DNA of 64,000 bases from Prunus persica (taxonomy: Eukaryota; Streptophyta; Magnoliopsida; Rosales; Rosaceae). The notes beneath the pieces are model-generated. The model was not told where the DNA came from, did not search any database, and saw only the letters and a program-made list of their open reading frames with translations. Both the position numbers and the translations under genes were made by a program. The stretch spans positions 4,460,735 through 4,524,734 of the forward strand of contig NC_034013.1 in assembly GCF_000346465.2 (NCBI RefSeq), read 5' to 3'. Below are positions 3,729 through 28,043 of the stretch, piece by piece. How positions within the stretch are numbered: the stretch's first letter is position 1; every line of letters starts with the position of its first letter.

Positions 3729-5158
3729 GTAGCATTTCTGTAGCTAAAAACAATTAATTTCATAATGTCATTCATATTTCAATTCCGGGGGGTAAGAATC
3801 CATACATTTTCATCCCAATTATTGTTTGGAAATCTTGGTTATGTCATAAAAGAACTCAAAATATGTTCAGTTTCCTAATAATAGATTTGGATCTTCTGCT
3901 TGTTTTTTCTCTGCTAAGATCTACCCACTACAAGAAAAAAAGGCTAATGTGACCAAATAAAAAGTGAGGCTTATAAATTCGTCACATATAATGGGTATTT
4001 GTGACGAATTTATCAAGTCGTCACTCATAAGACAATGAAGACATCTGGAATTTTGGAGGAAGGCCAAATCCCTCACAAATAGTCTAGCGGTTTTGGGCGG
4101 CAGAGACCAACAATTATTTGTGAGGCTTGTGGGGTCACATATAATATTTTAAGGCGTCACAAATTTTTAGTGTGGGAATATCTATCCAAAAAAATGAAAA
4201 ATAAAAAGGAATAAGCGGAAAAGTTTCCCGCCCCCAAAATAAAATTATTATCGTTAGGGTTTAGTTATCATCACATATTCGCAAATGTGAGGACCTGGCT
4301 CACTTATTCACATAAAATATTTATCAAAATTTCAACTATTCATTCATCTCCCTTTGTTTATTCACTCTTTACTCGCTCTGCAACCAAAACTCATAGCCAT
4401 CTGCGTTTCTCAAATCATCGGCCGACGCGATTGATACTGTATCATCGTCGGCTACTTCTCCAACGACCATTATTGCTCTAGCGACAACTACCACTTCAAC
4501 GAAAGCTCTTTCATTCCTAATTCCTCAATGCACCACAATATCTCTGTAGTCTTAATCCTAATATAGGTATCATATTTGTAATTTTTTTATTTCTTTGCTT
4601 TTTTGGTCGAATCTCTTTGCTTCAGTTTTGGGTAAGTTGAGTGGTTTGGTGAATTTCTGCATGTTTAAGATTTAGGATTTATAGAATCATCCTGTGATTG
4701 TTGATTGGTTTATTTGTGAAATTTAATGTTAAAGACATCTTTTCAGGCATAATTTGATTTATTGGGTTTTTATGCACTGTTGTTAATTTGCTTTATTATC
4801 TTTGTTTTTCAAAAATAGGAATATGAATCGGTGTTTACTTTTCAAAAATCTTGTTCTTAGAGTTCTAATTGGAGTTGTGCTTTAGGAGGAGATTGGGATG
4901 TAATAGGAAGTTTTATTGTTACTTTTCCTTTTATTAATTTATTTTATTAACCTTACTACTTTTTGTTTGCTTGTTGAGGCAATTATATAAGAATATAAGA
5001 CATCTAATCAATATGCTTTCTATCGTTGGCTACCTAAAAGATCAATTATGAGCCAAGCCTTTTTGGATATCATAAAAAACATGAAAACTCATCATGCTGT
5101 TTGAAAGATTTGTTTCTACATAATAAATTTGGAACATGTTTATAAATACAAGTTTTAA

Positions 5159-5404
5159 ATGGATAGGCAGTGGATTGCCAAATGTTGTGATCGAGGAAAC
5201 GATCCAAATGATAAGAAAGGGATTGAATCCTTCATTGATGTTGCAAGACACCATGTGAATACCAGTGGTGAGATATTATGTTCATGTAGGCATTGCCATA
5301 ATTCATTTTGGCACCCTATTGATATGGTTCACTTCCATTTGTTGCGATATGGGATGGATGTTACTTATGACATATGTTACTTTAATCAGTTTTTTTATTT
5401 CTGA
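5159..5404 (+). pseudogene. En/Spm transposase-associated domain (Transpos_assoc) fragment
   Basis: The fragment begins MDRQWI and continues with GIESFIDVARHHV, then CSCRHCHNSFW and a HFHLLRYGMD block. This is the N-terminal zinc-binding Transpos_assoc domain that precedes the catalytic core in plant CACTA transposases (Cys/Cys...Cys/His pattern). The reading frame opens at 5159 and stops at 5404 after running into what looks like intron sequence. The remaining transposase is missing. It lies in the middle of the CACTA element at 3926-6737, which supports the assignment. Confidence 0.7.
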
Positions 5405-5694
5405 TTTATAGGAAGGGAAGCCTTTATTATTCATTGACAATTGGGAAAGGCTACATAAAGATAGAGAGCATAATTGGATTAGTGAGGATGCCCAAGAAAA
5501 GCATGTAAATTAATAATGATTTATATTAGTAGTGCACCCAAATTGATAGAAATCGTGGATCCTCTTACATATTTAGAAAACACTATGTAATATTGATTTT
5601 TAGATGGGTGCTGGTTGATTAGTTCTTCTTACACACAGTTACTAATGGCATCTCATATGTCATATGCAAGTTTAATTTGTTGATTTGTCTATAG

Positions 5695-6100
5695 GAAAAA
5701 ATGAAACAAATGTGAGATGAACTGAGGGCCAAGCTAATTGAGGAGCTGATGAGGATATTGAGGCTGATTCAATAGGAGTTCCAATTGAGGCCGAGTTCAA
5801 GATCATGGGTGATGTACTTGGAGTGAAAGGTAGGATAATTTGTGGTCTTGGTGCTTTTCCTCAAATGGAAGCCAATATCTCAACTACTGTTTTTTCTAGA
5901 GCTTCTAATTCTTAGCTTAGCAAGTTACAAGATATAGTATAGATGCTTGCCACAAATATGCAAAGTGTGCAGGAAGATTATTCAAATTTGAGGGCTTAAT
6001 TGGTGGCCGCTCTAGAGGCATCCAACAATGATGGGCTGGATAATGCACGGTTGATGTCAATGTTGCGTGCAGCTTTGATGCCGTCGGCAATAACCTAGGA
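5695..6100 (+). pseudogene. Decayed CACTA accessory ORF, possibly Transposase_24-like
   Basis: With several stops, the frame reads KIMGDVLGVKGRIICGLG and then a Gln/Asn-rich helical stretch (MLATNMQSVQEDYSNLRA, ALEASNNDGLDNARLM). This resembles the C-terminal part of the Transposase_24 type accessory proteins of plant CACTA elements, which have a VLG...GRVRG-like block followed by a helical tail. The match is short and made by eye, so only the general assignment to a CACTA accessory protein is offered. Confidence 0.35.
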
Positions 6101-6740
6101 TGAGATTTACATGTTTACATTATATTATTTTGGATATTAAGCGTGTTTAGAACCTTGGATATACTATTAAGCAAATACTTAACTTGGATATGCTATTTTG
6201 GATATTATTCATCTATGATATGAAGCTTTTTTTTTTTTTTTTATACAGAGTATTATATTTATTAGGATCATTCTCATGAAATCATTCACACATATTATCA
6301 ATTGTGATGAGTTTTTTTGGCATAACAAATTATACAATATGACGATTTGTTATATGTCATATTTTAAATAAAGTGACGATTTACAAAGCTTCACAAATTG
6401 AACGTTGTGACAACTTGTCTATCGTCATATTAGATATGATGTGACCACTTGTCAGTCATCAAAAAATGAATTATGTGGCCTATTGTTACACGTCACAAAA
6501 GAAACAATGTGACAAAACACGAGAAGTCACATATTGTAAACAGTGACAAATTCATACCTCATCACATTGTCCTATATGTAACACGGAGTTATAGTCGTCA
6601 CATTTGACATCGGGTGAGGGGCTTAATGTGACGACCCTTGTGACGCCAGAATATAGTCACTTTAACGTAATCGCGAGGAAATTTTGCCTAATGTGAGGAA
6701 ACGTTTTCGTCACATTAGCCTTTTTTTTCTTGTAGTGACT

Positions 6741-11466: not shown

Positions 11467-14400
11467 TCTAAACATAAATAACACCATAGTCTTCATACCC
11501 AAATCTAAACACATAAATATTTTTAAAATAAGATAATTTCGTACCAAATCTTCCAAAAGGCTGAGCAACAAGACCTTCGAAGAGACTAAGAAGCAAAAGC
11601 GTAGGTAGTCTCAAAATCAGAGAAGAAAAAAAATTTAGATTCACCATATAGAAAAACCCAAGTCTGAAACGAAATATTTTATAGAAATTTTTCTTATCAA
11701 GATCTTCCAAGAAAGTGTGTGGGAAGATTGCAAGAGTGAGAAGCAAGGAATTTCTAGTCTTCCTAAGAGAAGATGGAGGAAAGCTCGAGCGACGTAGACA
11801 AGGAGGAGGTGTTTATGTTTTCCGTGTTTTCCCCGTTTTCCCAAATAGGATCCCGTATTCTCTAATCTGGAGTTGAGAATGGAGAAAACGTCATTTTGGC
11901 GTTTTCACGTTTTACGCTTAACGTGTGAATTCATTCTCCCAAAATATTTTCCGTGTTTTTGTCAATAACCCACCGAACGCATTTTTTATTTGTCTTTGGG
12001 CTCAAAAAACAAAAACAGGCCTTTAAAAATGTTACTAAACAACCCCTTATCATTTTCCACTTGTCTAGTTTGTCAAATTATAAAATAAAATGAATTTTAA
12101 AAATAAAAAAAAAAAACTTGAAATGGAACTTGAAATCTATTTCCTGGTCTTATTTACATGGTCCTTTTGTATTTTACAAATTAGAGTTTATATTGGGTTT
12201 GTTAATTGTTTTAATCAACCTAAAAACACCAATTCATGAGAAAATGCCTTCTTGATTACATACACTTATGATTCGGCTAAATTGTAACAATGGTCCCTAG
12301 ACTATACCCCAACTTTACTTTTCGTCCCTCCCATTGTTTTGTTGTTACCGTGGTACTTTAATTATGCCTCCAATTACAGAAACCATCATTGCAGTCATCT
12401 CTGTCAAATTTTCCATTAAAAATGATGACATGGCATTGACAAGTCCTACTTGGCATGGGCAAAAATGTATTTTCGCACAAAATTTTTTTTAAAAAAAAAT
12501 CATATCATATCTCTCTCTCTCTCCCTCTCCAGCCCGATTCCTCCCCTCCTCCCAATTAGGTCGGAGGTTCACTCTCAACTATGAAAAATTTCTAAAGCTT
12601 CCTCCCAATATCCATTTGAACTACAAAACACCATATACGCAAAAAGAATCCGGTAACAACCCATCCATTCGTAACCTATAGAGGCCAAGGAAGGGATTTT
12701 GGAGGAGGTTGGTGGTGGGCTGTGTAGCTAAAGCCATGTTTAAATGATTGGTGGGGGCTGGGAAGAAATTGGTGGGCGGGAGAAGAAATATGGGTGAGAA
12801 GGGGCCTTGAAAAATGGTGTATTTTGATCAAAAACCAATGCGAGAAGAATATGAAAATGGGACAGACAATGCAAGCGGCCCACCTAGATACCCATCAACC
12901 CTCTGCTTCTTTGTTTTGATCAGATCTGGGGTGGAGGATGAGGGCTAGGGTTTTAGGTTTGTGGGTGCTGGGGTTGCGGCTATGATAGAGGGTGGCACTA
13001 CTACAAAAAGTGAAAAAGACGACCAGAAAACAATGACGGTCTAAGTGAAAACCGTCGTGGTTTTTAAAAAGACGACGGTTCTAAAAACACCGTCGTGTAA
13101 TACAACCTTAGACAACAAAAAAATGGAGATTCAAATGGCTGTTCAAAAACAACGACGTACCTAATTAAACAACCGACGTCTATTTGAAACAGATTTCCGC
13201 AGTGTAAAATCAATGCCAACAAAGAACGGCAGAAGTTATGAATCGACCGACGTAGAAAGTAAAGATGACGATTTCAATAAAAACCGCCGTTTTTACTCAT
13301 AAAATAACACGACGAGGTTTTCGTATAAGACGCCGTATAATTACAAACAAATTCACGGCTTTAAAATACAAAATATCGCCGTATTAAATTAATGTACAAC
13401 GACGGAAAATATAAATATATCGACGTCATTCTCGTATAGTTCTACGACGTTATCTTTAAATCGTACAATAAAATTTAACGTCGTATGTATTCATTTTATA
13501 CGTCGTACCTTTAATTTTAACCGTCGTCTTAATAAGAATTTTTGTTAACAATTTTTTTCTTTGATTTTCTTATCCTACGTCGGTAGATCTACTTGATGAC
13601 AAGAATTGAAATAACCACGACGGTTTATATAGAAAATCGCCGACATAATCAGATTTGTCTGAGATCCCAAGGGTTACGAAATCTTACCAGATGGAACTCT
13701 GTTCCACATCATAATCTTAACAGATGACACAGATTTGCAATCAGAGAGACAATTTTTTGGAAGTTGATGATGTGTGTGCGTTTGTGTATCTACAAATATT
13801 ATACCTAACGTCGTTGCAAATTTGCAATCAGAGAGACAATTTTCAACGACGGTTATATTATACCTAACGACGTTTAAAAAACAAATCAACGTCGCTAAAC
13901 AAATATATTACGTCGTCTCAGTCTTACTTAAGAAGACGAAAAATGACGACAGTAATAAAAAAAACAGTCGTTGTTTTTATATTCTTATTTTATTTAAATA
14001 TGTCCTCCAAAAAAGAAACTTTACATATTCCAGAACATTAATTTCCTTCATTTTAAATTTCCTCCGGAAAAAAAAACTCTATTTATAACGCACTGTAATT
14101 GAAAAATAAACTGAAAGGCCACGGGAAAAAAAATTCTATTCATAATTTAAAAATTCAAATCCACGTCGGTTATATTAAACATAACGACGTTAAATGAAAA
14201 GATTCCACGTCGCAAAACAAATATTGCGTCGTGTTAGTTAAAAACGACGGCATAACAAAAAACCGTCGTTGTTTCAAACTGAATTAATTTAAAATTTATT
14301 CGGGAAAGCAAAATCTATTTATAATTTCCTTGGGTTAGTAATATTGCGTCGTGTTAGTTTACAAATTCTAGAACATTAATTTCCCTCATTTTAAATTTTC

Positions 14401-14645
14401 TCGGGAAAGAAAAATCTATTTATCACGCTTTGTAATTGAAAACTAAAACTGAAAGAATTCGGGAAAAAAAACTCTATTTATAATTTAAAAATAAAATCCA
14501 CGTCGGTTGTATTACACTTAACGACGTTTAACAAAATAATCTACGTCGGTAATTATAAATCTACCGCCATCTTACCTTAATATAGACGACGAGAAAAGAC
14601 GACGGTAGAACAGAAAACCGCCGTTGTTTTAGTTTCTTTAACAGT

Positions 14646-15090
14646 TTGGTCCTTTATCTTTCTGCAGGACTTGTATAGTTCAAAGCATTGACAATGTCTT
14701 CATCATATCTCCCAGCAAATACTGATTCGATTGCTCATGCTTTAGAGGCCATCTGAAGCCATTTCTATTCTTTATCGCATTCTTGAAACCCATCTTCTTT
14801 TTCTGAAGCTCTACGGATAAAGGAAGAGGCTATCAAAAATCTGACGGATCTTCTTAGCCAAGAAAATCAAGCAGATTTCCCTGAGAAGCGAACTTTCCTT
14901 CGACAGCGAGTGGAGGCCAGGCTTGCATCTCTTTTGATGGAAAGCAAGGAGTATTCAGAAGCACTAAGTGTCCTATCAGGCTTGATCAAGGAAGTGAGAA
15001 GGCTAGTTGACAAGCTTCTTCTTGTGGACATATATTTTATGCGAGTAAGCTCAATTTATCTTTGAGAAAGACATCCAAATTATTGTCTTT
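14646..15090 (+). pseudogene. RPN6: Captured fragment of host 26S proteasome subunit RPN6 (PSMD11)
   Basis: After an intron-end-like TTTCTGCAG and a short leader, an ATG at 14694 opens SSYLPANTDSIAHALEA, the N terminus of plant RPN6, the PCI-domain lid subunit of the 26S proteasome. Small deletions then break the frame. It resumes as SEALRIKEEAIKNLTDLL, jumps over an internal part of the protein, and continues KRTFLRQRVEARLASLLMES, then KEYSEALSVLSGLIKEVRRL and KLLLVD, where a further indel and TGA end it. CGTCG motif arrays flank it on both sides, so it lies wholly inside the CACTA element. It is a transduplicated gene piece and cannot yield a working subunit. It might give rise to small RNAs against the host gene (inference). 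Confidence 0.8.
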
Positions 15091-15589
15091 GAGATGTGAG
15101 AGACTGAGAGAGGAAGAACTTGGAACCCTAAATGTAAACCGAAAATGAATGAAAGCGACAAATTTATAGAATAAATTTTTAAAACCAACGGCGGTCCTTA
15201 CAAAAAAACCGCCATTTAAATTGTAAAATCAACGTCGGTATGATCGACGTATATTACAGAAATCCACGTCGGTACATTAATAAAAACGACGTGTTAAATA
15301 ATCTACCATGACGCGAGTTATTACTTATGTACTTTAATTTTTGAGTTTACTACGACGGTACCTACAACACTACTGTCGTATTTATTTACCACGTCCGAAG
15401 TTAAATTTACCGTCGTATTTTGTAATTTATACGTCGTAGTTATATGTAACCGCCGTATTATTTTTTGAAATGGTTTTATATGTAAGCAACTTTTCGTCTA
15501 CCTGACATACACATGCATTGTTTCCAAACCCGATTAAAATTTCAATCTCCCAGAGAAAACTTTTAGACTTTTTTCCTTGTCAGAGTACT

Positions 15590-16552
15590 GTCAGAGTATC
15601 TCATCGTCTTCCTCTCGTCTTCTTCGTCGTCTCTGAACTTAAACATAATCTTCCTCTTGCTTTCATTGCACGCAAAAGGTAAGCTTTCATTTTCACTATT
15701 TTGGTTGCTGTTTTGCATGCTCATACGTTTTTTGTTTGAAAAATCTTTTTACCTTTTTTCTGGCCAAAATCATTTTACTTCTTTCCAAGTTCGATAAAAT
15801 ATACAGACAAAGAGGGAAAGTTTCCAACTTTGAAGACAACTACCTCAACTAAATAAGACAACGGTAGCTTCTTATTTACGTGGTTAAATATGTAGACCAC
15901 GACGGTTCGTCAGTCGTTCTAGCGTCGTCTGAAAATTGACAAAGTTGTTTTTAAAATTATAGTCTTTTTTTTGGCTTGCTTGTTTAATTGCAGGTTTGAT
16001 TTCTCTGAACAATGGTTTTTGTTTTTCCCTAATTTGATAAAATATAAAGAAAAAGAAAGTAGGGTTGGTATCTAATATAGACGACAGTATCTTATTGTTT
16101 TACGTCGTGTGAATGTTAATACCACGACGTCATATTAAAATACCGTCGTCTATATAAGATTCCAAAACTTTCTTTCTTGGCCTTGTATTTTATCAAATTA
16201 GAAAACAAAAACCATGGTTCAGAAAAATCAAATCTGCAATCAAACATTCACAGAGAAAGAAAGAAGGGTTTTGGATCCTTATATAGACGACGGTATATTA
16301 CTACTGACGTCGTGTGAACATCAATACCACGACGTTATATAAATATTTCGTCGTTTATAGTTAATTATCACGTCGTTTATAGTTAATTATTTCGTCGTTG
16401 TTTAATTACCTTGGTTTTAAACATTTATTACGTCTGAGATTATTTCATTGCGTTGTTTAAAATAATATCATACGTCGTATTTTATTAATAACCGTCGTTT
16501 GTGTTCTTAATCTTTTCCTGAAATATTTTCACTTGCAGTTTTTTCTGTAAAA
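15590..16552 (+). promoter_or_regulatory. Leader exon and leader intron of the CACTA accessory gene
   Basis: A pyrimidine-rich stretch (about 15590-15678) ending AAAAG before GTAAGC at 15679 reads as an untranslated first exon. An acceptor TTGCAG ends at 16538, 14 bases before the ATG at 16553. The 860-base intron between them contains the same CGTCG/CGACG motif arrays as the rest of the element, including a block shared with introns 1 and 4. The transcription start itself cannot be placed. Confidence 0.45.
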
Positions 16553-19500
16553 ATGGTTTCTCACCAAGACCAAAGTAAGGATTCTGGCTCCAAGAAAAAT
16601 GGAGGTAAGGAGCTTGGAATGGTACCTCCTCAAGTGAAGCCTTCGAAGAAGATGAAGTTTGCTTCATCATCTGCTGAGACAGAACCAACCAGCACGACAA
16701 CAATCTCTGATGATTCAAAGTCTGGTCGAGGTATGAGCACAATGCCTCGTGTTGTGAAGAGAAAACTTCAGAAACTGAGGCCAATTGTTGAGTACAATAA
16801 AAGGGGGAAAGGAATTGGCCAAGCATATAGTGAGATGCAGTCCTACATTGGTGTGTTGGCATACTCCAGAGTTCCACTTGTGGACATGAAATGGGCTCAA
16901 ATCCCCAAGGATATAAAGGAGCAGATTTGGGAAGCAGTTGACATTGCTTTTGTGGTAGGTCAAGGGGGCAAGAACTCTGTGTTAGCTTCTGCTGCCAAGA
17001 AATGGAAGGATTTCAAGTCTACACTAACGAGGCATTATATCCTTCCATACACCAATGACAGGGAGAGATTAAGCCAACCCCCTGAAACATATAAATTCAT
17101 AGAGAAAGCACAATGGGATGCCTTTGTAGCTTCAAGGTTATCCAAAGATTTTGAGTCTGTGCATTCTCAACATGCACAGATTAGGGAGAAACTTGAGTAC
17201 AATCATCGATTGTCTCGAAAAGGATATACTGGTTTGGAGGATCAATTGGAGGAAACCATGCCTGGGGTAGAAATTGATCGATCTACCTTATGGAAGAGAG
17301 CTAGACAGGACAAACATGGTAACATCCCGGATCCAAAGGTGGCAGAGAAAGCAAAATTAATTGTAAGCCTACTCACTCTGTTTTAAATTTTTATTAAACT
17401 GTGAATAATTCTTATTACGTCTTATGTTATATTTTGCGTCGTGTGAATGATATTACCACGTCGAAATTTTTTTAAAAACGTCGTTAAAGGTCTAAATCAG
17501 GAATCACTACTCTGTTTTCTGTAATTATAGCATAAGATGTCGGTGGTTCATTTTCGCGTCGTTTGTATTGAATTACTACGTCGAAATATTTTAAACAAGG
17601 TCGTTAAAGGTGTGAATATTGAATCATCCCTCTGTTATCTGTAAATAAAGCATAAGACGTCGGTGGTTTATTCATTTCGTCGTTTTAAAAACTAACCACG
17701 TCGGTATAACTACCGTCGTGATAAATTATAATAACGTCGATTTATATGTTATTGCGTCGTGTGAAATTATATAATACGTCGTTTGTATATAAATAACCGT
17801 CGTGTGTTTTTTTCTTACTTTTTTATATATCTTTGTTTTAGGATGAATTGCAAAAACAAGTCTCGGAAGGCAAAGTCACTGTATCTGGCAGCAATGATGT
17901 GTTGACCATGGCTTTGGGTCCCGAGCATCCAGGCAGAGTGAGAGGAGTAGGTGCTGGGATCTCACCAAGGCAATATTTCAATTTACCCAAACCACAGAGA
18001 GTGAGCTTTGACGACCGTTTGAATGACAGTTTAAGAGTTCTCCTTCAAGAAGAGACTAAAAAGATGGAAGCTAAGGCAAGGGAAGAGGCTTTAAGGATGG
18101 AGGCTAGGACGAAACAATTGGTAGAGGCTGAGAGGGAGCATATCCTGAGTCAGCTTTCTCAATTAATTCCCAATTTTGATCCAAGCATGCTTAAACCCAG
18201 AATTAGCCAAAGTCCCAAAAATCCAATGTCTGACAAAGCAAGCTGCTCTGGAGGTGATGTGAGATCCCTACATTTTGAGGATGATACTGCCAAAAATGGG
18301 AAACATCAGGAAGAAAAGGTAACATATCTGAACTTTGAATTCTCTGTTTTTTTTAAAACCATTAGACGTCGTTATTATTAATAAAACCGTCGTTTGAAAT
18401 ACATACCACGACGATTAAAAATAAACCGTCGTTTGTATTTCAATACCACGTCGTATTTAGTTTACTTGTTTTACACGTCATTAAACGTTGTTATTTTTAA
18501 AACTTTGTGGTTTTTAGACGACGGAGTTAGTCATTCCCGACGTAATAGATGAAGAGAAGAAAGAAGAAAAACAAGATGAAAAGGAGAAAGAAGATGACGA
18601 CCAGGTATGTTCACATAACTTTGCCTTTTTTATTTGTTTTTCAAAATTCCAGACGTCGATATTTTTCTTTAAACCTTCGTTTGTTTACAACTTAGACGGC
18701 GGAATTTTTTTCTAAGACGTAATAAATTATTCACCACGACGGTTTCTTCACCGTCGTTTAAATTCTTTTCAGACGACGTTTTATTCCTTAAACCGTCATT
18801 TTTATTGAATTACCACGTCATTTTTTTTATTTCTTTAAACAGGTTATTCAAGTTGTTGATTATTCAAATATGGAGGCGCCATCTTCTTTAAAATCCCTTT
18901 GTCGTTATGTGGAAACGACACTCGTGCCTCAGGATAAGACCTTGCACTTTACAATTGATAAGGAGGTGTTTGGTCTAGAGCGTGATACCTTCCTCCTGCC
19001 TGAAGATATTACACAATTTGCAGGCATGGAAGAAATAGGAGCCACTGTCATTGCTGTATATATGAGATTTGTCATTCTAAAATAATACGTCGTTGGTTTA
19101 TTTATTGCGTCGTCTTAACTAACTAACCACGTCGTTAGTATGTACCGTCGTGATAAATATATTATAACGTCATTGTCTATTTCAGTACGTCGTGTGAAAT
19201 TTTATAATACGTCGTTTTGTTATACATAACCGTCGTGTGTTTTTTTGTATATATGAGGTTTGTCATTCTAAAATAATACGTCGTTGGTTTATTTATTGCG
19301 TCGTCTTAACTAATTAACCACGTCGTTTGTATGTACCGTCGTGATAAATATATTATAACGTCGTTGTCTATTTCAGTACGTCGTGTGAAATTTTATAATA
19401 CGTCGTTTTGTTATACATAACCGTCGTGTGTTTTTTTGTGCTGACTTGTTTATATTATTTTATATATATAGGTACTTACACGATGTTTTGAAACGAGCAA

Positions 19501-20422
19501 ATATGTGCAGCATGGTTGGCTTTATCGACCCTGCTACAGTTAGTGCCAGCTCTGGCACAATAGCTGACAGATCACGCCTACTAGCAGCTCGACTTCAGAG
19601 GACTGACGGTGAACAGATTTTCCTGATGCCTTACAATCCAGGGTTAGTCTCCTTAACAGGATTTTGTTTTTATGATTTTCAATAAATGACAGCGTATAAA
19701 CTAACCACGTCGGTGTTTTATTTTATTGAGTCGTTCGAAACTACTAATCACGTCGGTAGTTATTTATCGTCGTAATAAATGTATAATGTCGTCGATTGCT
19801 ACTTTATTTCGTCGTGTGAAATATTATAATACGTCGTTTTTGTAAATAACCGTCGTTTTTATATTAATTTTGTGCAGCCGTCATTGGATCTTGCTGATTG
19901 TAAGAGCAAAGAGAGAAACCGTCTATTTTCTGGATTCTCTGCCAGGAAATCGTGTGGTCGATGAAGAGGCCAAAAACATTGTGAATAGTGCTATAAAAAT
20001 TTATAATTCTCACATAGCTAGACCAGGCCGTAAGGCAGTCATTTGGAAAACTCTGTCAGGCACACCAAAGCAACTCAGCAGTGTCGAATGCGGGTATTAT
20101 GTGATGCGCTTCATGAGGGACATCATCATGGATCCTTCCTTGGAGTTTGAGAAGAAGGTAAGAAGAAATTACCTTCATACATTTTACGTCGTTTTTTGTA
20201 TTATCAACGACGGTCATGTAAAATTACCGTCGTTGAATAGATATAGTACGTCGGTTATGAAAAATATCGTCGTCTGTGATTGAATTTCTTTTTATTTATA
20301 AACCCTAATAGTCATTGTTTATGCAGTATGCCAAGGGAAAACAGGAAGCGCCATACCCCCAAGAAGCAATTGATGAAGTCCAAAATGAATGGGCAGAGTT
20401 TGTTTGCCTTCACCTGGAATAG
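16553..20422 (+). CDS. CACTA accessory protein: Transposase_24-like N-terminal part fused to a Ulp1/C48-like cysteine protease domain
   Basis: Seven exons join in frame to 714 residues: 16553-17362, 17842-18318, 18518-18604, 18843-19066, 19472-19642, 19878-20157 and 20327-20422. All borders are GT/AG except the exon 4 donor, where AT stands at 19067-19068. Residues 60-290 resemble the plant Transposase_24 family (PRVVKRKLQKLRP, MKWAQIPKDIKEQIW, DRSTLWKRARQDKHGNIPDP). About 340-390 is a charged helical, probably coiled-coil region, and 430-458 is acidic. The C-terminal part matches C48 SUMO-protease folds, with His592 (RHWILLI), Asp609 (YFLDSL), Gln655 and Cys661 in QLSSVECGYYVM, a complete His-Asp-Gln-Cys set. 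Members of this family remove SUMO from proteins in the nucleus, but whether this one is active is unknown. All introns are filled with element motifs. The donor change may block correct splicing. Its neighbour is the DUF4216 transposase remnant. Confidence 0.75.
19056..19437 (+). repeat. 191-bp tandem duplication covering the exon 4 end and intron 4
   Basis: Two copies (19056-19246 and 19247-19437) begin GTATATATGAG and differ at about four or five positions by eye. The first includes the true end of exon 4, but its donor reads AG/AT. The second copy keeps AG/GT at 19258, inside the intron. Each copy carries about eight CGTCG motifs. Confidence 0.8.
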
Positions 20423-20689
20423 GAGAATTATTGAACACTTGATATTTATGTATAATGTACAAATTTTGTCTATAATATATAATGTAAAAATTTGTTGAGG
20501 TTTTCTTAAATTAAAAAAAAAAAACAAACATACAAATTGCGTAACCGACGTGTAATACTTTTCCAACGACCTAATAAAGTCAAAAACCGTCGTTTTTTGT
20601 TGTTTCGTTTTAAACAAATCCGACGTAAAATGATATTTAGACGACGTTCTTTGAACAATTGAGTCGTTTATGGTTTACAACGTCTTCAA

Positions 20690-21560
20690 TTTCTTAAGGG
20701 TTCAGGGTAGTACTTTGTAACGACAGCGGTTAAGTCGTGGAATATATATTTTACGTCGGATAGTTAAATATCCGCCATGGTTTCTCATTTAAACGACGTC
20801 ATTTTAACAACTTAGTCGTCTATTACAATTTACAACGTCTACAATTTATTAACACCGACGTGGTTTGTTGTTGTGATAAGAATATTTTATTATTTTTATA
20901 TCAAAATATTCAAAATAAATTTAAAATAAATCAGAAAAATGCAAAGTCAACTCCTATGAAGTCATTGATATATTTTCTTCCCCCTAAACCTTGAAAAAAT
21001 TCATTTTGAATAACAAAAATTTAAAATGACCATCCAAAACAAAATTGTTTTGATGAGTCATAAAATCACTTCTAGTTTTATGGTTTAGGGTTTAGAGTCT
21101 AGGGTTTAGAGATTATGGTTGTTATTTATTGGGGTTTATTTTTAAAGTATAATTTTTGGGTAGTATAGGGTATATATTAGGCTGTAAAACCATAAACCCT
21201 TTTATAAACTTAAATTTTTAAATTATATAATTTAGTTTTAAGGGTTTAGGGTATTAATTTTTAACGACGGTGGTTGAGTCGTGGAATACATATGTTACGT
21301 CGTGCAGTAAAATATCCGACATGGTTTATACTTTAAACGACGTCATTTTAATATGTAAGTCGTCTATTATAATTTACAACGTCTTCAATTTGTTAACCCC
21401 GACGTGGTTTTTCAGTCGTCTTTATATCAAAATATTCAAAATAAATTTAAAATTAATCCGAAAAATGAAGCGTCAAAATAAACGGCGTTACGTTCAGTGT
21501 TTCCGTCGTGGAATATTACATTTACATCGGTTCTTGTAGAACTTTCGCCATGGTTTTTCT
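20690..21560 (+). repeat. Direct repeat in the CACTA spacer, about 555 bp apart
   Basis: A block at about 20697-20940 (TTAAGTCGTGGAATA, TTAAACGACGTCATTTTAA, TATCAAAATATTCAAAATAA) recurs at about 21240-21460 with small changes. Between them lies AT-rich sequence with telomere-like GGTTTAGGGTTTAGAG words (21090-21110). No gene is seen in this spacer. Confidence 0.65.
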
Positions 21561-21878
21561 TTCGACGTTTTAAAGAGCGCGCTCTCTAAAAATTTTCGCA
21601 CGCCCTAAATTTTTTTATATTTGGCTCTTATTCTTATACTTCTAACCCTGAACCCTAAAATTTTCAGATTTCGCGCAACATAACATTCGCTCTCTCACTT
21701 CTGCTCTAATTAAAAGTTGCACTCTCCAGGCTCCGTCGAATCTGTGAGCTCATCCAACCTGTAAGTACAAACCCTATCTTCCCCTTGTAAATTCATTGAA
21801 TGATATTAGGTTGTTTTGTTAAAGGATTTTAGGTATATGCTTTGCGATCTGTTAATAATGTGCTTATAGGTATGGGTT

Positions 21879-21940
21879 CATGGATTTTCTGTTTAATGGG
21901 TTCATGGATTTTCTGTTTAATGGGTTCATGGATTACATTA
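21879..21940 (+). repeat. 24-bp tandem repeat, about 2.5 units
   Basis: The unit GGTTCATGGATTTTCTGTTT plus AATG recurs from about 21868 to 21935. It lies in the leader of the lost TNPD gene, downstream of a probable leader exon ending before GTAAGT near 21762. The open frame over it is repetitive and not credible as a protein. Confidence 0.55.
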
Positions 21941-22348
21941 TCTGTTATGTTGAATTGGGAATGGATTTAATATTGTCGGATCTTTTAATCACCCTATGTT
22001 ATGTTGAATTGGGAATGGATTTATTGTTTTCATGCTTGGTTTCATGTATATGTTGGTTTCTTGCTTGGTTTCATATATATGTTGTGTTCTTAATGGGTTT
22101 TGGGTTCTTGAAAATAAACTGAGACACGACACCTTTTTAGGCATACGACGACGATTACACGACGGTTTATGAAAAAACCGTCGTTGTATTACTTATACAC
22201 GACGCTTTTTTCATAAACCGTCGTTTGTATTACTTATATTAGACGACGTATGTTGAAAATTCGTCGTCTATATATGCCAAATACGTCTGTTTTTGTTTAA
22301 AACCCGTCGTCTCTGTTGTGTATTACTTGCTATTAGATCTTTGTTTAG

Positions 22349-23143
22349 AAAGAGAACAAAGTGGCTGCAGGATAAGCACAATAGCACTTTCATTCAATGG
22401 CTACGCTTCAAGGTATATGTTGTTGAATAACATATTTCTCTTTTAATTTTCTTCTTATTTCTATGTTAGATTGAATTAAGATATATGATTAATTTGCAGG
22501 TTCAAAGTAACTTGAGGAAGACAATCATGGCGTATCAGAAAATTTAAGGTGGCTAGCAGCTGGTCCAAACATGACAGTGCCATTATATAGGAGCTATCTT
22601 ATTAAAGGTATTAAATTCAATATCAAGGCACAAGATGATGTGCGGACAACTCAAAATAGTGGAGTTTATTTACTTGCACATACCATGCAAGTTGCTAGTG
22701 CCAAGGATAAAAACCTAATTCTCTCAAATATGGGTTTCTATGGTGTCATTCAAGAAATTTGGGACCTTGACTACCAAAAGTTTACAATCTCAGTCTTTAG
22801 GTGTGATTGGATAGATAGTTCTGGTCTTGTAGTCGACGAACTTGAATTTACCCTTGTAGATTTGAGTAAAATTGGACATAGGAATGACCAATTTGTTTTG
22901 GCTTCTCAAGTCAAACAAATATTTTTTGTTGACGACCCGATGCATCGTGGTTGGTCGGTAGTGTTATCAATGCCTAATAGAGAATATAATGATGTTATTG
23001 GTGATGAAGTCTTAGGTGATGTGATAATTGAGTGTGAGCCATTTACTAGAGGGATGCCAAATGTTGACACATTTGATGAACTGGTGGGTGAGTTAGGCGG
23101 TCAAAATATTCGAGATGGGTGTGAAGATATATGGATTGAATGA
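22349..23143 (+). pseudogene. TNPD transposase remnant: DUF4216 C-terminal domain
   Basis: An exon start after TTGTTTAG at 22348 gives KWLQDKHNSTFIQWLRFK. An intron follows (about 22412-22499). The next exon reads VQSNL, needs a one-base frame change, then gives NLRWLAAGPNM. From 22571 an unbroken frame covers YRSYLIKGIKFNIKAQ, TQNSGVYLLA, then YGVIQEIWDLDYQKFTISVF, ELEFTLVDLSKIGH and VKQIFFVDDPMHRGWSVVLS. This is the DUF4216 domain, the C-terminal part of plant En/Spm TNPD transposases. The upstream Transpos_assoc, Tnp_2 catalytic and DUF4218 parts are missing, so the element cannot cut its own ends. A leader region at about 21600-21762 may be the original promoter side, joined to this 3' end by internal deletion. 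Confidence 0.75.
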
Positions 23144-23597
23144 TGCTTATGTAATTGGCAGTGTATGACATTAATTTTATAATATATTGTAATGTGATTT
23201 CTTCACTTTCTACGTTCAAATAAAACACGACGTTATTGTGAACCAGTTATTCAGCATATGTACCGACGTCTTAAAGCAACGTAACAATGAAGAACCACGA
23301 CGCTATTGTGAAGCAATTATTCAGGATATCACGTCGGGGAAGGATTAAGAACCGCCATGTAATTCAAAATAACACGACTCCAATCCCATAATACCGACGT
23401 CTAAAAAACGAGATATATAATCTGAACGTTAAAAAATACGACGTCATCATACATTTTCCACGTCGCAAGTTCTTTTATAAACGAAGAGGAACGAAATGAA
23501 TTCCGACGGTAATTCATTATAACCGCCGTCTAATATCAATTAAACGACGTTATTTGTAATACGGCTCTCATCATAATCAACGTCGTCTATATGTTCT

Positions 23598-24580
23598 GTA
23601 ATACGGCTCTCATTTATTTAGAACCGACGTTGTTTAGAAGTTCAACGTCGTCTATATTAATAAGTGCGTCGTGAGTAATGAATACATATAAATACAACGT
23701 CGACAATATAAATGCCACCGACGTTGTTTCGCATTCAACGTCAACTATATAAATACATACGTCGTAAATAATGACACTGACAACTATTTCCACGTCATCT
23801 TTTTTAGAAAAATCGAAGTGGAAAATTTATTTCACGACGGTTGTTTGTAAATAAGAGACGTAGTAGATTTCAATAACGTCGTCTTCTCATGTATTTAAAG
23901 ACGTCATATTTTTTCTTGTCGTGAAAATTATATTTAACGGCGTAGTGTTTTAGTTGTCGTCGTTGTATGTCTATCTTGCGGCCTTGTTCTTTTAATATGT
24001 GTCATATTTTTCCTTTTTAACGACAGTGATTTGTTTGAGTTGGTCGTCTATTATCATCCTCGACTATTTTTTAGAACTTTAGCAGACTAAACACGTCTGT
24101 TTTTATTTGTTTTCGACGTTGTTGTATTTAACAACGTCTAATATTTATCGTCGTTGTTTGTTTCTGAAAATAGGACGTATAAATTTTGTAATACGACTCT
24201 CATATATTTGTAACCGATGTTGTTTCATTGTTCAACGTCTACTCTATAAATACATACGTCGTAAATAATGACACTGACAACTATTTCCACGTCATCTTTT
24301 ATAGAAAAATCGAAGTGGAAAATTTATTTTACGACGGCTTTTTTTATATAGGCGACGTAGTAGGTATCAATAACGTCGTCTTCTAATGTATTTAAAGACG
24401 TCATATTTTTTATTGTCATGAAAATGATATTTAACGACGTCTTATTTTAATTTTCGTCGTTGTATGTCTATATTGCGGCCTTGTTCTGTTAATATGTGTT
24501 ATATTTTTCCTTTTTAACGACGGTTTTTTTAGAGAGTTGGTCGTCTATTCTCATCCTCGACTGCTTTTTTAGATCTTTTT
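23598..24580 (+). repeat. Direct duplication in the right subterminal array (offset 497 bp)
   Basis: The block beginning TACATACGTCGTAAATAATG at 23754 recurs at 24251 and can be followed for over 300 bases (CACTGACAACTATTTCCACG, TATTTAAAGACGTCATATT, TTGCGGCCTTGTTCT). A second shared word (AATACGGCTCTCAT, near 23560, 23600 and 24190) shows further nested duplication. The array has grown by segmental duplication rather than by point gain of motifs alone. Confidence 0.75.
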
Positions 24581-25059
24581 GCAGTACAAAGACGTCGTTT
24601 TGTATTTGTTGATGACGTTGTATATTGTAACAACGACGGTAATTTAGCGTCGTGGTTTATGAGGGAAAAGATGACGGTGGATTCCACGACCATTGAAAAA
24701 CCGAATACACGACGGTGATTTACCGTCGTCTTTTTGCTTTTTTGTAGTAGTGTGGCTGTGGGATAGTTTGAGGGTTGGAGCTTGCAGGTGGTAGTCAAGG
24801 GGAATGGGGGAAGAAGAAATCGTCGGGGGAAGAGGGAGAGTGCACAGGAGGGGAGGAGAGAGAGAGAGAGAGAGAGAGAGAAAAAAAAAATGAATTTCCC
24901 AATTTGCCCTTAATTTTGACAGAAAATTTAACTAAGTTGACGGAAAAACTAATGATGCAACATGAGAGCTAATTGAAGTACCACAGTAACAACAAAACAA
25001 TGAAAAGGACGAAAAGTAAAGTTTGGTCTTAATTCAGGGACTATTGCTACAATTTGTCC

Positions 25060-25667: not shown

Positions 25668-25868
25668 CCATTTTTTTCTTTGCTTTTTTAAATTTCCCAA
25701 TTTTTACTTTTGCAATTCCCAAATAATTTTATTTTAGGGTTCGTTCAAATTTTGCTTGCATTTAGATAAGGTGACAAAATATCCAGAAGGTGGTCTTCCT
25801 TAGCAGTAGCTTCATTATAATAAGTTTAGGTTTCCCGTTCTTCCAAAAAATAACTCTCAATCAATCTT

Positions 25869-28043
25869 ATGGCTGCTACTTCTGCTGTCCATTTTACTGT
25901 GAATTCCTCAGAAACAAAGAGACCCATCTTCTTCACTTCGCCGTTTAGACAAATTCCAACCAAAAGATTCAACCTTTCTTGCAGGTCCACCAAGTCTCCT
26001 CCAAAATCTCCACCAGATTTAGCAGAACCCAACAGCAAGAACAACAACAAGAAGAACGACGACAACAACAACAAAAAAAACCCATCTTTATCTTTGTCTG
26101 AGCAACTCCAGCCTCTAACCTCAACCACTCTCTCCAACCCTCCCAAAGACCAATCCCAATTGCTTTCCAAGCCGAAGTCCATTTGGGTGAACCCCGCCAA
26201 GCCCAAACGCTCTGTGCTCTCTCTGCAGAGGCAGAAACGGTCACTTTACTCTTACAATCCTCAGGTGAGAGATCTCAGGCAGTTTGCTCATAAGCTCAAT
26301 GATTGTGATGCCTCTCAAAATGCTTTCTTGGCTGCTCTTGAAGAAATCCCACACCCACCCACTAGGGAAAATGCGCTTTTGATACTCAATAGCTTGAAGC
26401 CATGGCAGAAAACCCATATGTTCTTCAATTGGGTGAAGGCCCAGAATTCATTTCCCATGGATACCATATTCTACAATGTCACAATGAAGTCTTTGAGGTT
26501 TGGGAGGCAGTTTCAACTCATTGAAGAGCTTGCTGAGGAGATGGTAAGCAATGAGATTGAGCTTGATAACATTACTTACTCCACTATAATTACTTGTGCC
26601 AAGAGGTCCAAGCTTTTTGACAAGGCAGTGGAGTGGTTTGAGAGGATGTACAAGACTGGTTTAATGCCTGATGAGGTGACTTACTCTGCTATTTTAGATG
26701 TTTATGCCAAATTGGGAAAGGTTGAGGAGGTTCTTAGTTTATATGAGAGAGGGAGAGCTAGTGGGTGGAAACCAGACCCCATTGCATTTTCTGTCTTGGG
26801 TAAGATGTTTGGTGAGGCTGGGGACTATGATGGCATTAGGTATGTCTTGCAGGAAATGGCTGCTCTTGGTGTGCAGCCTAATTTGGTTGTGTACAATACT
26901 TTGTTAGAGGCAATGGGCAAGGCTGGAAAGCCTGGTTTAGCAAGAAGCTTATTCGAAGAAATGGTGGGATCTGGGCTGAAACCAAATGAGAAAACATTGA
27001 CAGCGCTTGTTAAGATCTATGGCAAGGCTAGGTGGGCTCGAGATGCTTTGGAATTATGGGAACGAATGAGGTCGAACGAGTGGCCTATGGACTTCATTTT
27101 GTATAACACATTGTTGAATATGTGTGCTGACCTTGGTTTGGAGGAGGAAGCTAAGAAGCTTTTCGAGGATATGAAGCAGTCGGAGCATTGTAGGCCGGAC
27201 AGTTGGAGTTACACGGCAATGTTGAACATTTTTGGGAGTGGAGGGAATGTTGATGGGGCAATGGGGTTGTTTGAAGAAATGTCTGAGTTGGGGATTGAGC
27301 TGAATGTCATGGGGTGCACTTGTTTGATTCAGTGCTTGGGGAAAGCTAGAAGATTCAGCGATATGGTTCGAGTCTTTGGTGTTGCAGTTGAAAGAGGGGT
27401 TAAACCAGATGATAGGCTTTGTGGGTGCTTACTGTCCGTTGTGTCATTGTGTGAAAAAACGGAGGATGAGGATAAGGTCCTCTCTTGTTTGCAGCAGGCT
27501 AATCCCAAGTTGGTTACCCTTGTCAAAGTGCTGCAAGATAAGAAACTTGGGTTTGAGACAATTAAAGATGAGTTCAGGGATGTTATTAGTGGCACGTCGG
27601 TTGAATCCCGGAGACCCTTCTGTAATTGCTTGATAGATATATGCAGAAACAAAAACAACCATGAGAGAGCTCATGAGTTGCTCTATCTGGGAACCCTATA
27701 CGGGTTGTATCCAGGTTTACACAACAAGACTTCGAGGGAGTGGTGTTTGGATGTTAGGTCACTGTCCATTGGTGCAGCTCACACTGCACTTGAAGAGTGG
27801 ATGGGAACACTCTACAAAATTGTTCAGCGTGAGGAGGCGTTGCCGGAGTTGTTTTCAGCCCAAACGGGTACGGGAACACACAAGTTCTCTCAAGGGCTGG
27901 CTCATTCCTTTGCTTCTCATGTGGAGAAATTGGCTGCACCATTTAGAAAAAGTGAAGAGAAAGCTGGTCGTTTTGTGGCGACCAGGGAGGATTTAGTATC
28001 TTGGGTGCAGTCACAGGCTCCATCTACAGCCATCACAGCTTAG
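25869..28043 (+). CDS. SOT1: Chloroplast PPR-SMR protein, SOT1 (Arabidopsis At5g46580) type
   Basis: An intronless frame encodes 724 residues, close to the length of known SOT1 proteins. Residues 1-45 are Ser/Thr-rich with few acidic residues, fitting a chloroplast transit peptide. A low-complexity Asn/Lys/Asp tract lies at about 55-72. A conserved IWVNPAKPKRSVLSLQRQKR block is at about 104. P-type pentatricopeptide repeats follow from about 195 to 530 (for example DEVTYSAILDVYAKLGKVEE, NLVVYNTLLEAMGKAGKPGL). The C terminus is an SMR domain starting at LDVRSLS (residue 627) with TGTGTHKFSQG at about 666-676. In Arabidopsis and maize (PPR53) this protein binds the 5' end of the chloroplast 23S-4.5S precursor and aids its maturation, and the SMR domain has endonuclease activity. 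The frame is complete. The sister SVR7 is less similar in the motifs I recall. Confidence 0.9.
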   Translation: MAATSAVHFTVNSSETKRPIFFTSPFRQIPTKRFNLSCRSTKSPPKSPPDLAEPNSKNNNKKNDDNNNKKNPSLSLSEQLQPLTSTTLSNPPKDQSQLLSKPKSIWVNPAKPKRSVLSLQRQKRSLYSYNPQVRDLRQFAHKLNDCDASQNAFLAALEEIPHPPTRENALLILNSLKPWQKTHMFFNWVKAQNSFPMDTIFYNVTMKSLRFGRQFQLIEELAEEMVSNEIELDNITYSTIITCAKRSKLFDKAVEWFERMYKTGLMPDEVTYSAILDVYAKLGKVEEVLSLYERGRASGWKPDPIAFSVLGKMFGEAGDYDGIRYVLQEMAALGVQPNLVVYNTLLEAMGKAGKPGLARSLFEEMVGSGLKPNEKTLTALVKIYGKARWARDALELWERMRSNEWPMDFILYNTLLNMCADLGLEEEAKKLFEDMKQSEHCRPDSWSYTAMLNIFGSGGNVDGAMGLFEEMSELGIELNVMGCTCLIQCLGKARRFSDMVRVFGVAVERGVKPDDRLCGCLLSVVSLCEKTEDEDKVLSCLQQANPKLVTLVKVLQDKKLGFETIKDEFRDVISGTSVESRRPFCNCLIDICRNKNNHERAHELLYLGTLYGLYPGLHNKTSREWCLDVRSLSIGAAHTALEEWMGTLYKIVQREEALPELFSAQTGTGTHKFSQGLAHSFASHVEKLAAPFRKSEEKAGRFVATREDLVSWVQSQAPSTAITA

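Follow-up and report, generated by a model that had tools for sequence, protein, structure and literature searches.

A peach CACTA family with phased CGTCG arrays in its non-coding DNA, introns included

Introduction

A 64,000-nucleotide stretch of the peach (Prunus persica) genome, here called the window, carries a complete CACTA insertion at 12996..24752 (+ strand, 11,757 bp), in which short CGTCG/CGACG sites occupy the arms, the spacers and the introns of a TNPA-like gene. What are these sites for, and which protein would read them? Element-driven, sequence-specific anti-silencing is well documented for VANDAL/VANC, and TnpA-linked demethylation of Spm has long been known and is tied to subterminal sites. 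The array described here is phased, avoids coding sequence, recurs in all 11 copies examined as well as in a diverged relative, and is under evolutionary constraint. Probably, a protein encoded by the element itself docks at these sites, perhaps as a means of escaping silencing.

Results

Motif sites fill introns, spacers and arms of the element

The ends of the element read CACTACTACAAAAA...TTTTTGTAGTAGTG, with the terminal inverted repeat (TIR) CACTACTACAAAAA at 12996-13009 (+) and 24739-24752 (-), and a 3-bp target site duplication (TSD), TGG, flanks it on both sides. Its CACTA...TAGTG terminal inverted repeats are those of the CACTA (En/Spm) group. Motifs are not confined to the subterminal regions, since introns and spacers also carry them. 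Such confinement is a usual, not a defining, CACTA trait and the window element stays a CACTA element, as a variant.

CGTCG and CGACG together occur 161 times in the element, compared to a mean of 17.4 and a maximum of 30 in 300 dinucleotide shuffles. Their density is 1.84 per 100 bp over all non-coding DNA of the element and 0.10 in coding DNA, and falls to 0.04 in the rest of the window (23 CGTCG/CGACG in 52,243 bp); two 10-kb stretches elsewhere in the genome gave 0.1 and 0.4 motifs per kb. The preliminary description of this locus had proposed a density above that of shuffled sequence and of unrelated DNA, with sites rare in exons, and these counts bear it out. The highest density was observed in the TNPA-like introns (2.83 per 100 bp, 49 in 1731 bp), followed by the right arm (2.05), the left part (1.66) and positions 20423-22529 (1.09), compared to 0.09 in the TNPA-like exons and 0.16 in the DUF4216 exon. 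Both ends are dense, with 32 sites in the left 1.7 kb and 33 in the right 1.6 kb, and each of the six introns modelled in the TNPA-like gene is occupied (13, 5, 4, 15, 7 and 5 motifs). The initial statement that the array makes up the entire non-coding sequence was overstated, as motif-poor non-coding stretches exist, for example 20857-21264 and 21735-22145. Similarly, one site per 20-30 bases is correct inside runs (one per ~21 bp) but not over the non-coding DNA as a whole, where the mean is one per ~54 bp.

The core has a preferred context: A (86) or C (45) precedes it in 131 of the 161 sites and T follows it in 120 of 161. The CpG observed/expected ratio of 2.1 in the element's non-coding DNA drops to 1.04 once exact motifs are masked; it is 0.41 for coding parts and 0.49 for the window outside the element. 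Within the introns, orientation is strongly skewed, with 45 CGTCG and 4 CGACG on the sense strand (binomial p 8e-10), while it is balanced (55:57) in the rest of the element. The same bias was found in four other window-type copies (37:2, 39:4, 38:4 and 35:6). It is not a general rule, however, as intron 1 of a diverged relative (see below) is mixed (1:5, 2:4 and 2:2 at three loci).

Sites are spaced near two helical turns

Gaps of 17-24 bp account for 75 of the 160 intervals between successive sites, 45 of them being 21 or 22 bp (null 16.9 +/- 3.8, maximum 28, 400 placements), and pair distances show further peaks near 42, 62, 82 and 101. The periodicity near 20-22 bp suspected at first reading is thus present. 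A one-mismatch motif lies at the centre of 10 of the 18 double gaps (36-46 bp), against a background of 13.5%, which suggests that absent rungs are often decayed sites. At 19700-19860, previously described as holding eight sites, seven are exact and the eighth is a one-mismatch AGTCG at 19729, filling a 43-bp gap.

The same spacing is seen genome-wide. Same-strand pairs CGTCG-N15-17-CGTCG (20-22 bp apart) number 10,715 + 11,177 = 21,892, compared to 434 + 431 = 865 for CGTCG-N23-25-CGTCG (28-30 bp apart); the backward-read controls of the two patterns gave 2,082 and 1,536, respectively. A plain 21-bp tandem repeat was ruled out as the source of the phase: similarity between neighbouring spacers is no greater than after shuffling (0.53 versus 0.50), and Tandem Repeats Finder reported short or large blocks only.

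The array is a property of the family

The search covered a genome of 227.5 Mb (192 contigs), in which the exact 14-base TIR is found 752 times in forward and 760 times in reverse orientation (backward control, 2 and 8), and the word ACCGTCGT 27,092 times (backward control, 10,049). The 100 places listed for this word are all on contig C1; paired TIRs enclose 75 of them, and another 13 are found shortly downstream of a TIR without a partner. From TIR pairs 5.8-15.5 kb apart, ten additional copies were chosen. Both TIRs were present in 10/10 and identical TSDs in 9/10; in the remaining copy, c12237 (C1:12237407-12243237), the TIRs match and the flanking triplets TCT/TAC differ. Enrichment was observed in all 11 copies, the window included (non-coding 1.32-1.99 per 100 bp, coding 0-0.10); one copy, c7749, is largely N. 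When the TNPA-like protein was searched for, the 150 of 883 candidates that were scored were all 96-100% identical over the query. Among the 120 protein relatives listed of 327, every row naming an organism was from Prunus, including Prunus persica PRUPE_4G254700.

A diverged relative was reached through the Prunus brigantina protein P0092, 64% identical to the window TNPA-like protein. With P0092 as query, 25 of 138 scored genome places were 70-91% identical to it, the remainder being window-type at 64-66%. The relative was sampled at three loci, two of them with internal stops, and its exon 1 is 61-67% identical to the window protein. About 2.6 kb of non-coding DNA per locus holds 22, 26 and 10 motifs, respectively, of which 6, 6 and 4 lie in intron 1, and coding sequence holds none (3/3 loci). 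Intron 1 of the relative barely aligns with that of the window, only short pieces matching (the longest 70 bp at 71%), and over window positions 14501-19500 most matches with E up to 1e-5 fall in exons. The site is therefore more durable than its surrounding sequence.

Two other peach CACTA families were examined for their motifs. A second, smaller CACTA element of 2.8 kb lies in the window at 3926-6737, with TIR CACTACAAGAAAA and flanking triplets (ACC/ACT) that are not identical; CACTA insertions of ~2.6 kb have been reported at peach PpYUC11 and PpeDAM6 (PMC13359793). In the 3926-6737 element, CGTCAC/GTGACG lies within ~400 bp of an end in 10/10 cases. In the L059/L060 family (C2:6403500-6416499), GCGAC/GTCGC clusters within ~0.5 kb of the TIR-like end L059:8858, with two sites in 8.4 kb on the gene side, where introns were not modelled. 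Another rise of CGTCG and GCGAC, beyond that TIR-like end (L060, joined coordinates 11800-13000), perhaps belongs to a neighbouring element. These families resemble the window family in having ends of CACTA type and a CG-containing motif of related sequence (CGTCAC; GCGAC) but, unlike it, keep their motifs mostly near an end. This is the usual layout, from which the window family stands out.

Motif sites mutate fast and are rarely fixed

Two classes of change were set against each other: those private to a single copy, most of which postdate its insertion, and those that became fixed between two sequence groups while the lineages moved. The copies are related and the groups may recombine, and the p values of this section serve as guides. 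In the TNPA region (31 versus 6 copies; c7749 and two copies without this region, c10448 and c12237, omitted; columns in badly aligned stretches dropped), the 129 motif sites carried 32 private changes (25 of them C>T or G>A) and 3 fixed ones. The 1047 other non-coding sites carried 117 and 49, respectively (Fisher p 0.010), and the 29 non-motif CG sites 9 and 5. Counts of private and fixed changes were 9 and 1 for 128 motif sites against 52 and 72 for 1706 other sites in the middle region (p 0.005), and 11 and 3 for 161 motif sites against 60 and 49 for 1291 other sites in the right arm. The left arm was aligned but kept out of the test, as the copies do not form two clean groups there.

With the three regions pooled, 418 motif sites show 52 private and 7 fixed changes and 4044 other non-coding sites 229 and 170 (Cochran-Mantel-Haenszel p 9.3e-5, odds ratio 0.21). 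Motif sites also differ from non-motif CG (197 sites, 34 private, 23 fixed; p 0.008), which in turn do not differ from other sites in the pooled regions (p 0.43). Once a copy has inserted, its motif sites change faster than its other non-coding sites, and yet such changes are less often fixed between lineages. The fast mutation of motif CpGs in settled copies resembles that of methylated CpGs. Selection, or protection from methylation while the lineage is active, would each give this pattern, and both would point to occupied sites.

We also compared divergence at motif and other positions pair by pair, dropping pairs with 100 or fewer motif bases (one version omits c7749). The motif/other ratio was 1.6, 2.7 and 2.9 between the window and its three nearest copies and 0.51-0.81 with six distant copies. 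The ratio spanned 0-3.8 among other close pairs and 0.6-1.4 among distant pairs that include c10448 or c12237. Faster motif divergence in close pairs and slower divergence in distant ones is therefore a tendency and not a rule, and the site-class counts were used instead.

The TNPA-like gene and the organisation of the window copy

The gene at 16553-20422, whose product had been tentatively proposed as the binder, is a TNPA-like gene. Pfam Transposase_24 (PF03004) matches exons 1-2 (E 3.8e-8, over the cut-off), and exons 5-7 encode a Ulp1/C48 protease part (Pfam Peptidase_C48). Among the main open reading frames (ORFs), Pfam returned Transposase_24, Peptidase_C48 and DUF4216 and no VANC-related family, no direct comparison with VANC being made. 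In exons 1-2, fixed differences comprise 23 nonsynonymous and 31 synonymous changes, a ratio of nonsynonymous to synonymous rates (dN/dS) of 0.20 compared to 0.38 for private changes, and the relative differs from the window group with dN 0.22 and dS 0.73. These values indicate that exons 1-2 evolve under constraint. The 191-bp duplication at 19055-19436 was not seen in five other copies (intron 4 of 213-221 bp there, 403 here). Since it spans the end of exon 4 and the exon-4 donor sequence differs between its two units, full-length expression of the TNPA-like protein from the window copy is uncertain.

Alignment to copy c0605 shows that the window copy has lost ~2.6 kb that include the TNPD core; the flanks of the missing stretch align to 22347 and 22344. 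It is therefore a deletion derivative without the Transposase_21 core. The missing stretch encodes an 812-aa TNPD ORF (Transposase_21) in c0605, c1213 and c2006; the places C1:614829, C1:1224405 and C1:2009929 of a PF02992 genome search fall inside these three copies. Upstream of the TNPA-like gene, ORF 14787-15065 matches RPN6 in the PDB (E 1.5e-26), and this captured fragment contains no motif. Many almond relatives of the TNPA-like protein are publicly named 'Non-ATPase subunit 9', a label probably inherited from the captured proteasome piece; in the almond sequence P0012 no RPN6 part is visible by eye. An intact pentatricopeptide-repeat gene (25854-28043) lies ~1.1 kb beyond the right end of the element, which may sit in the upstream region of that gene. 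The parts of the element are collected in Table 1.

Table 1. Parts of the CACTA element in the window (window coordinates)
Feature	Position	Strand	Basis or content
Left terminal inverted repeat region	12996..13032	+	37-nt arm, 81% complementary to 24716-24752
Left motif array	13053..14604	.	32 CGTCG/CGACG sites, both orientations
Captured host fragment, 26S proteasome subunit RPN6 (non-ATPase subunit 11)	14693..15064	+	PDB sequence match
Motif array, captured fragment to TNPA-like gene	15233..16497	.	21 sites
TNPA-like gene, 7 exons	16553..20422	+	Pfam domains; exon model by eye
Six introns of the TNPA-like gene	17363..20326	+	49 motif sites
191-bp tandem duplication, end of exon 4 and intron 4	19055..19436	+	Repeats 7-8 motif sites
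Intergenic region, TNPA-like gene to TNPD	20423..22509	.	23 sites, motif-poor stretches within
Leftover last exon of TNPD gene (DUF4216)	22510..23143	+	Pfam DUF4216, E 2.1e-16
Right motif array	23228..24728	.	33 sites, both orientations
Right terminal inverted repeat region	24716..24752	-	Complementarity to left arm

Discussion

A proposed platform for an element-encoded protein

We propose that the core CGTCG, usually with A or C before and T after it, would be the binding site of an element-encoded protein, and that the sites would have spread from their usual subterminal position to most of the non-coding DNA, including the introns of the regulatory gene. The ~21-bp phase would set bound protein on one face of the helix. 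The likeliest binder would be the element's own TNPA-like (Transposase_24) protein, recognising HCGTCGT sites two turns apart, and it would most likely serve to coat copies of the element, which would then be recognised, kept or made hypomethylated, and expressed. To this reading, a VANC-like self-recognition and anti-silencing platform made of TNPA sites, we give a probability of about 0.5. Hypomethylation is the output that we favour over autoregulation or synapsis. As every site contains two CpGs, methylation could itself act as a built-in switch that sets the readability of the array.

Published work on related systems gives this proposal its ingredients. TNPA is described as binding CACTA subterminal repeats (PMC2613891), and TnpA as activating Spm with demethylation (as cited in PMC10398659). 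For soybean TgmR*, hypomethylated parts are described close to the subterminal repeats and to the 3' end of ORF2 (PMC4219821). In Arabidopsis, a motif array in non-coding DNA and introns is the target of the sequence-specific anti-silencing protein VANC21 (PMC5735166).

The peach family resembles En/Spm-type CACTA elements (Spm, Tam1, soybean Tgmt* and TgmR*) in its CACTA ends, 3-bp TSD, TNPD (Transposase_21 + DUF4216) and TNPA-like genes, and short repeated motifs, in both orientations near the ends, with a GC-rich and an AT-rich part. It differs from them in that its sites are not only subterminal but fill TNPA-like introns and spacers at a 21-bp phase, and in that its TNPA-like gene also has the Ulp1/C48 protease part. 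With VANDAL21/VANC21 and VANDAL6/VANC6 of Arabidopsis, which are Mutator-like, it shares dense family-specific arrays of a short motif, located in non-coding DNA including introns, absent from coding sequence there, and grown in part by tandem duplication (PMC5735166). The peach element belongs to another superfamily (CACTA ends, 3-bp TSD), its motif is CGTCG and not YAGTATTAY, and its sites are of mixed orientation outside introns. Its candidate binder is a Transposase_24 protein. The likeness to VANDAL/VANC drawn in the preliminary description extends to the layout of a selected, family-wide array in non-coding DNA and introns, but not to the type of element. By analogy, VANC-like anti-silencing is plausible. 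In the literature searched, with partial coverage, no CACTA element was described with motif arrays throughout introns. We regard the array as genuine, unusual and kept by selection. It adds a novel variant to the known organisation of CACTA elements, like VANDAL/VANC in principle without belonging to that system.

Other explanations

Several results weigh against the proposed platform. Taken alone, the right arm gave p 0.15 in the site-class test, and the TNPA-region test without alignment filter p 0.075, with 6 of 9 fixed motif changes in a badly aligned inverted-repeat stretch. For exon 1 of the TNPA-like protein, the AlphaFold model was too poor to recognise a DNA-binding fold (20-sequence alignment; mean predicted local distance difference test score 51.4, predicted template modelling score 0.31), and a profile search of the PDB returned no solved relative at E up to 0.1. 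Part of the array was built by duplication: a best match of at least 0.8 was found for 52% of spacers versus 21% of shuffled ones, and Tandem Repeats Finder reports duplicated blocks, those of 120, 191, 22 and 40 bp containing motifs. Finally, the TNPD-gene intervals examined (a 267-bp interval between two large exons in c0605, and window 22331-22509) carry no motif, so that the presence of sites in every intron, as first claimed, holds for the modelled TNPA-like introns but not for these intervals.

This last contrast between the two genes suits autoregulation or suppression, in which the TNPA-like protein, bound in its own introns and around promoters, would block or slow transcription like the Spm Suppressor and meter its own supply, methylation not being the target. 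TNPA bound at subterminal sites has been described as a steric obstacle to RNA polymerase (PMC2613891), and the mostly sense orientation of intron sites in window-type copies fits this mechanism. In contrast, the terminal arms are equally dense and the diverged relative shows no sense bias in intron 1, and we regard autoregulation as unlikely to be the main role of the array.

Somewhat less likely again is that the array serves transposition only, as an enlarged set of ordinary subterminal TNPA sites joining both ends, the intron sites being by-products. Dense arms at both ends and related motifs near the ends of CACTA families in the same genome are in agreement with such a role. End-only synapsis would nevertheless not need the sites of the middle region and of the TNPA-gene region, and it is in these two regions that constraint was observed.

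Under neutral spread, a CG-rich unit would have been multiplied by local duplication and gene conversion, and exons would be free of it only because duplications there were purged. This reading draws on the motif-containing tandem blocks and on spacers related above chance. It is already disfavoured and we consider it improbable, as the phase is kept although the resemblance between adjacent spacers does not exceed that of shuffled ones, the motif persists in a relative where intron 1 hardly aligns, and motif sites are fixed less often than the mutation rate predicts. Binding by a host protein that the element exploits is very improbable, given that the arrays track the CACTA family, that few CGTCG sites occur in the window apart from those of the element, and that the different but related motifs of other peach CACTA families suit co-evolving element proteins.

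Significance

If the platform reading is correct, the VANC principle may have arisen independently a second time, in a CACTA family of peach. The binding sites of the TNPA-like regulator would here have become a phased array for self-recognition that extends over the whole element, and an element protein would coat and de-silence every copy, including those without coding capacity, while sparing host DNA. We hold this broader proposal as tentative, at slightly less than even odds. An abundant family with constrained, phased, element-wide arrays offers a natural system in which to ask whether motif arrays are general anti-silencing self-marks of plant DNA transposons. The same family lets one ask how sites enter introns without spoiling genes. 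Together, the diverged relative and the related motifs of other peach families would make the co-evolution of protein and site testable in one genome.

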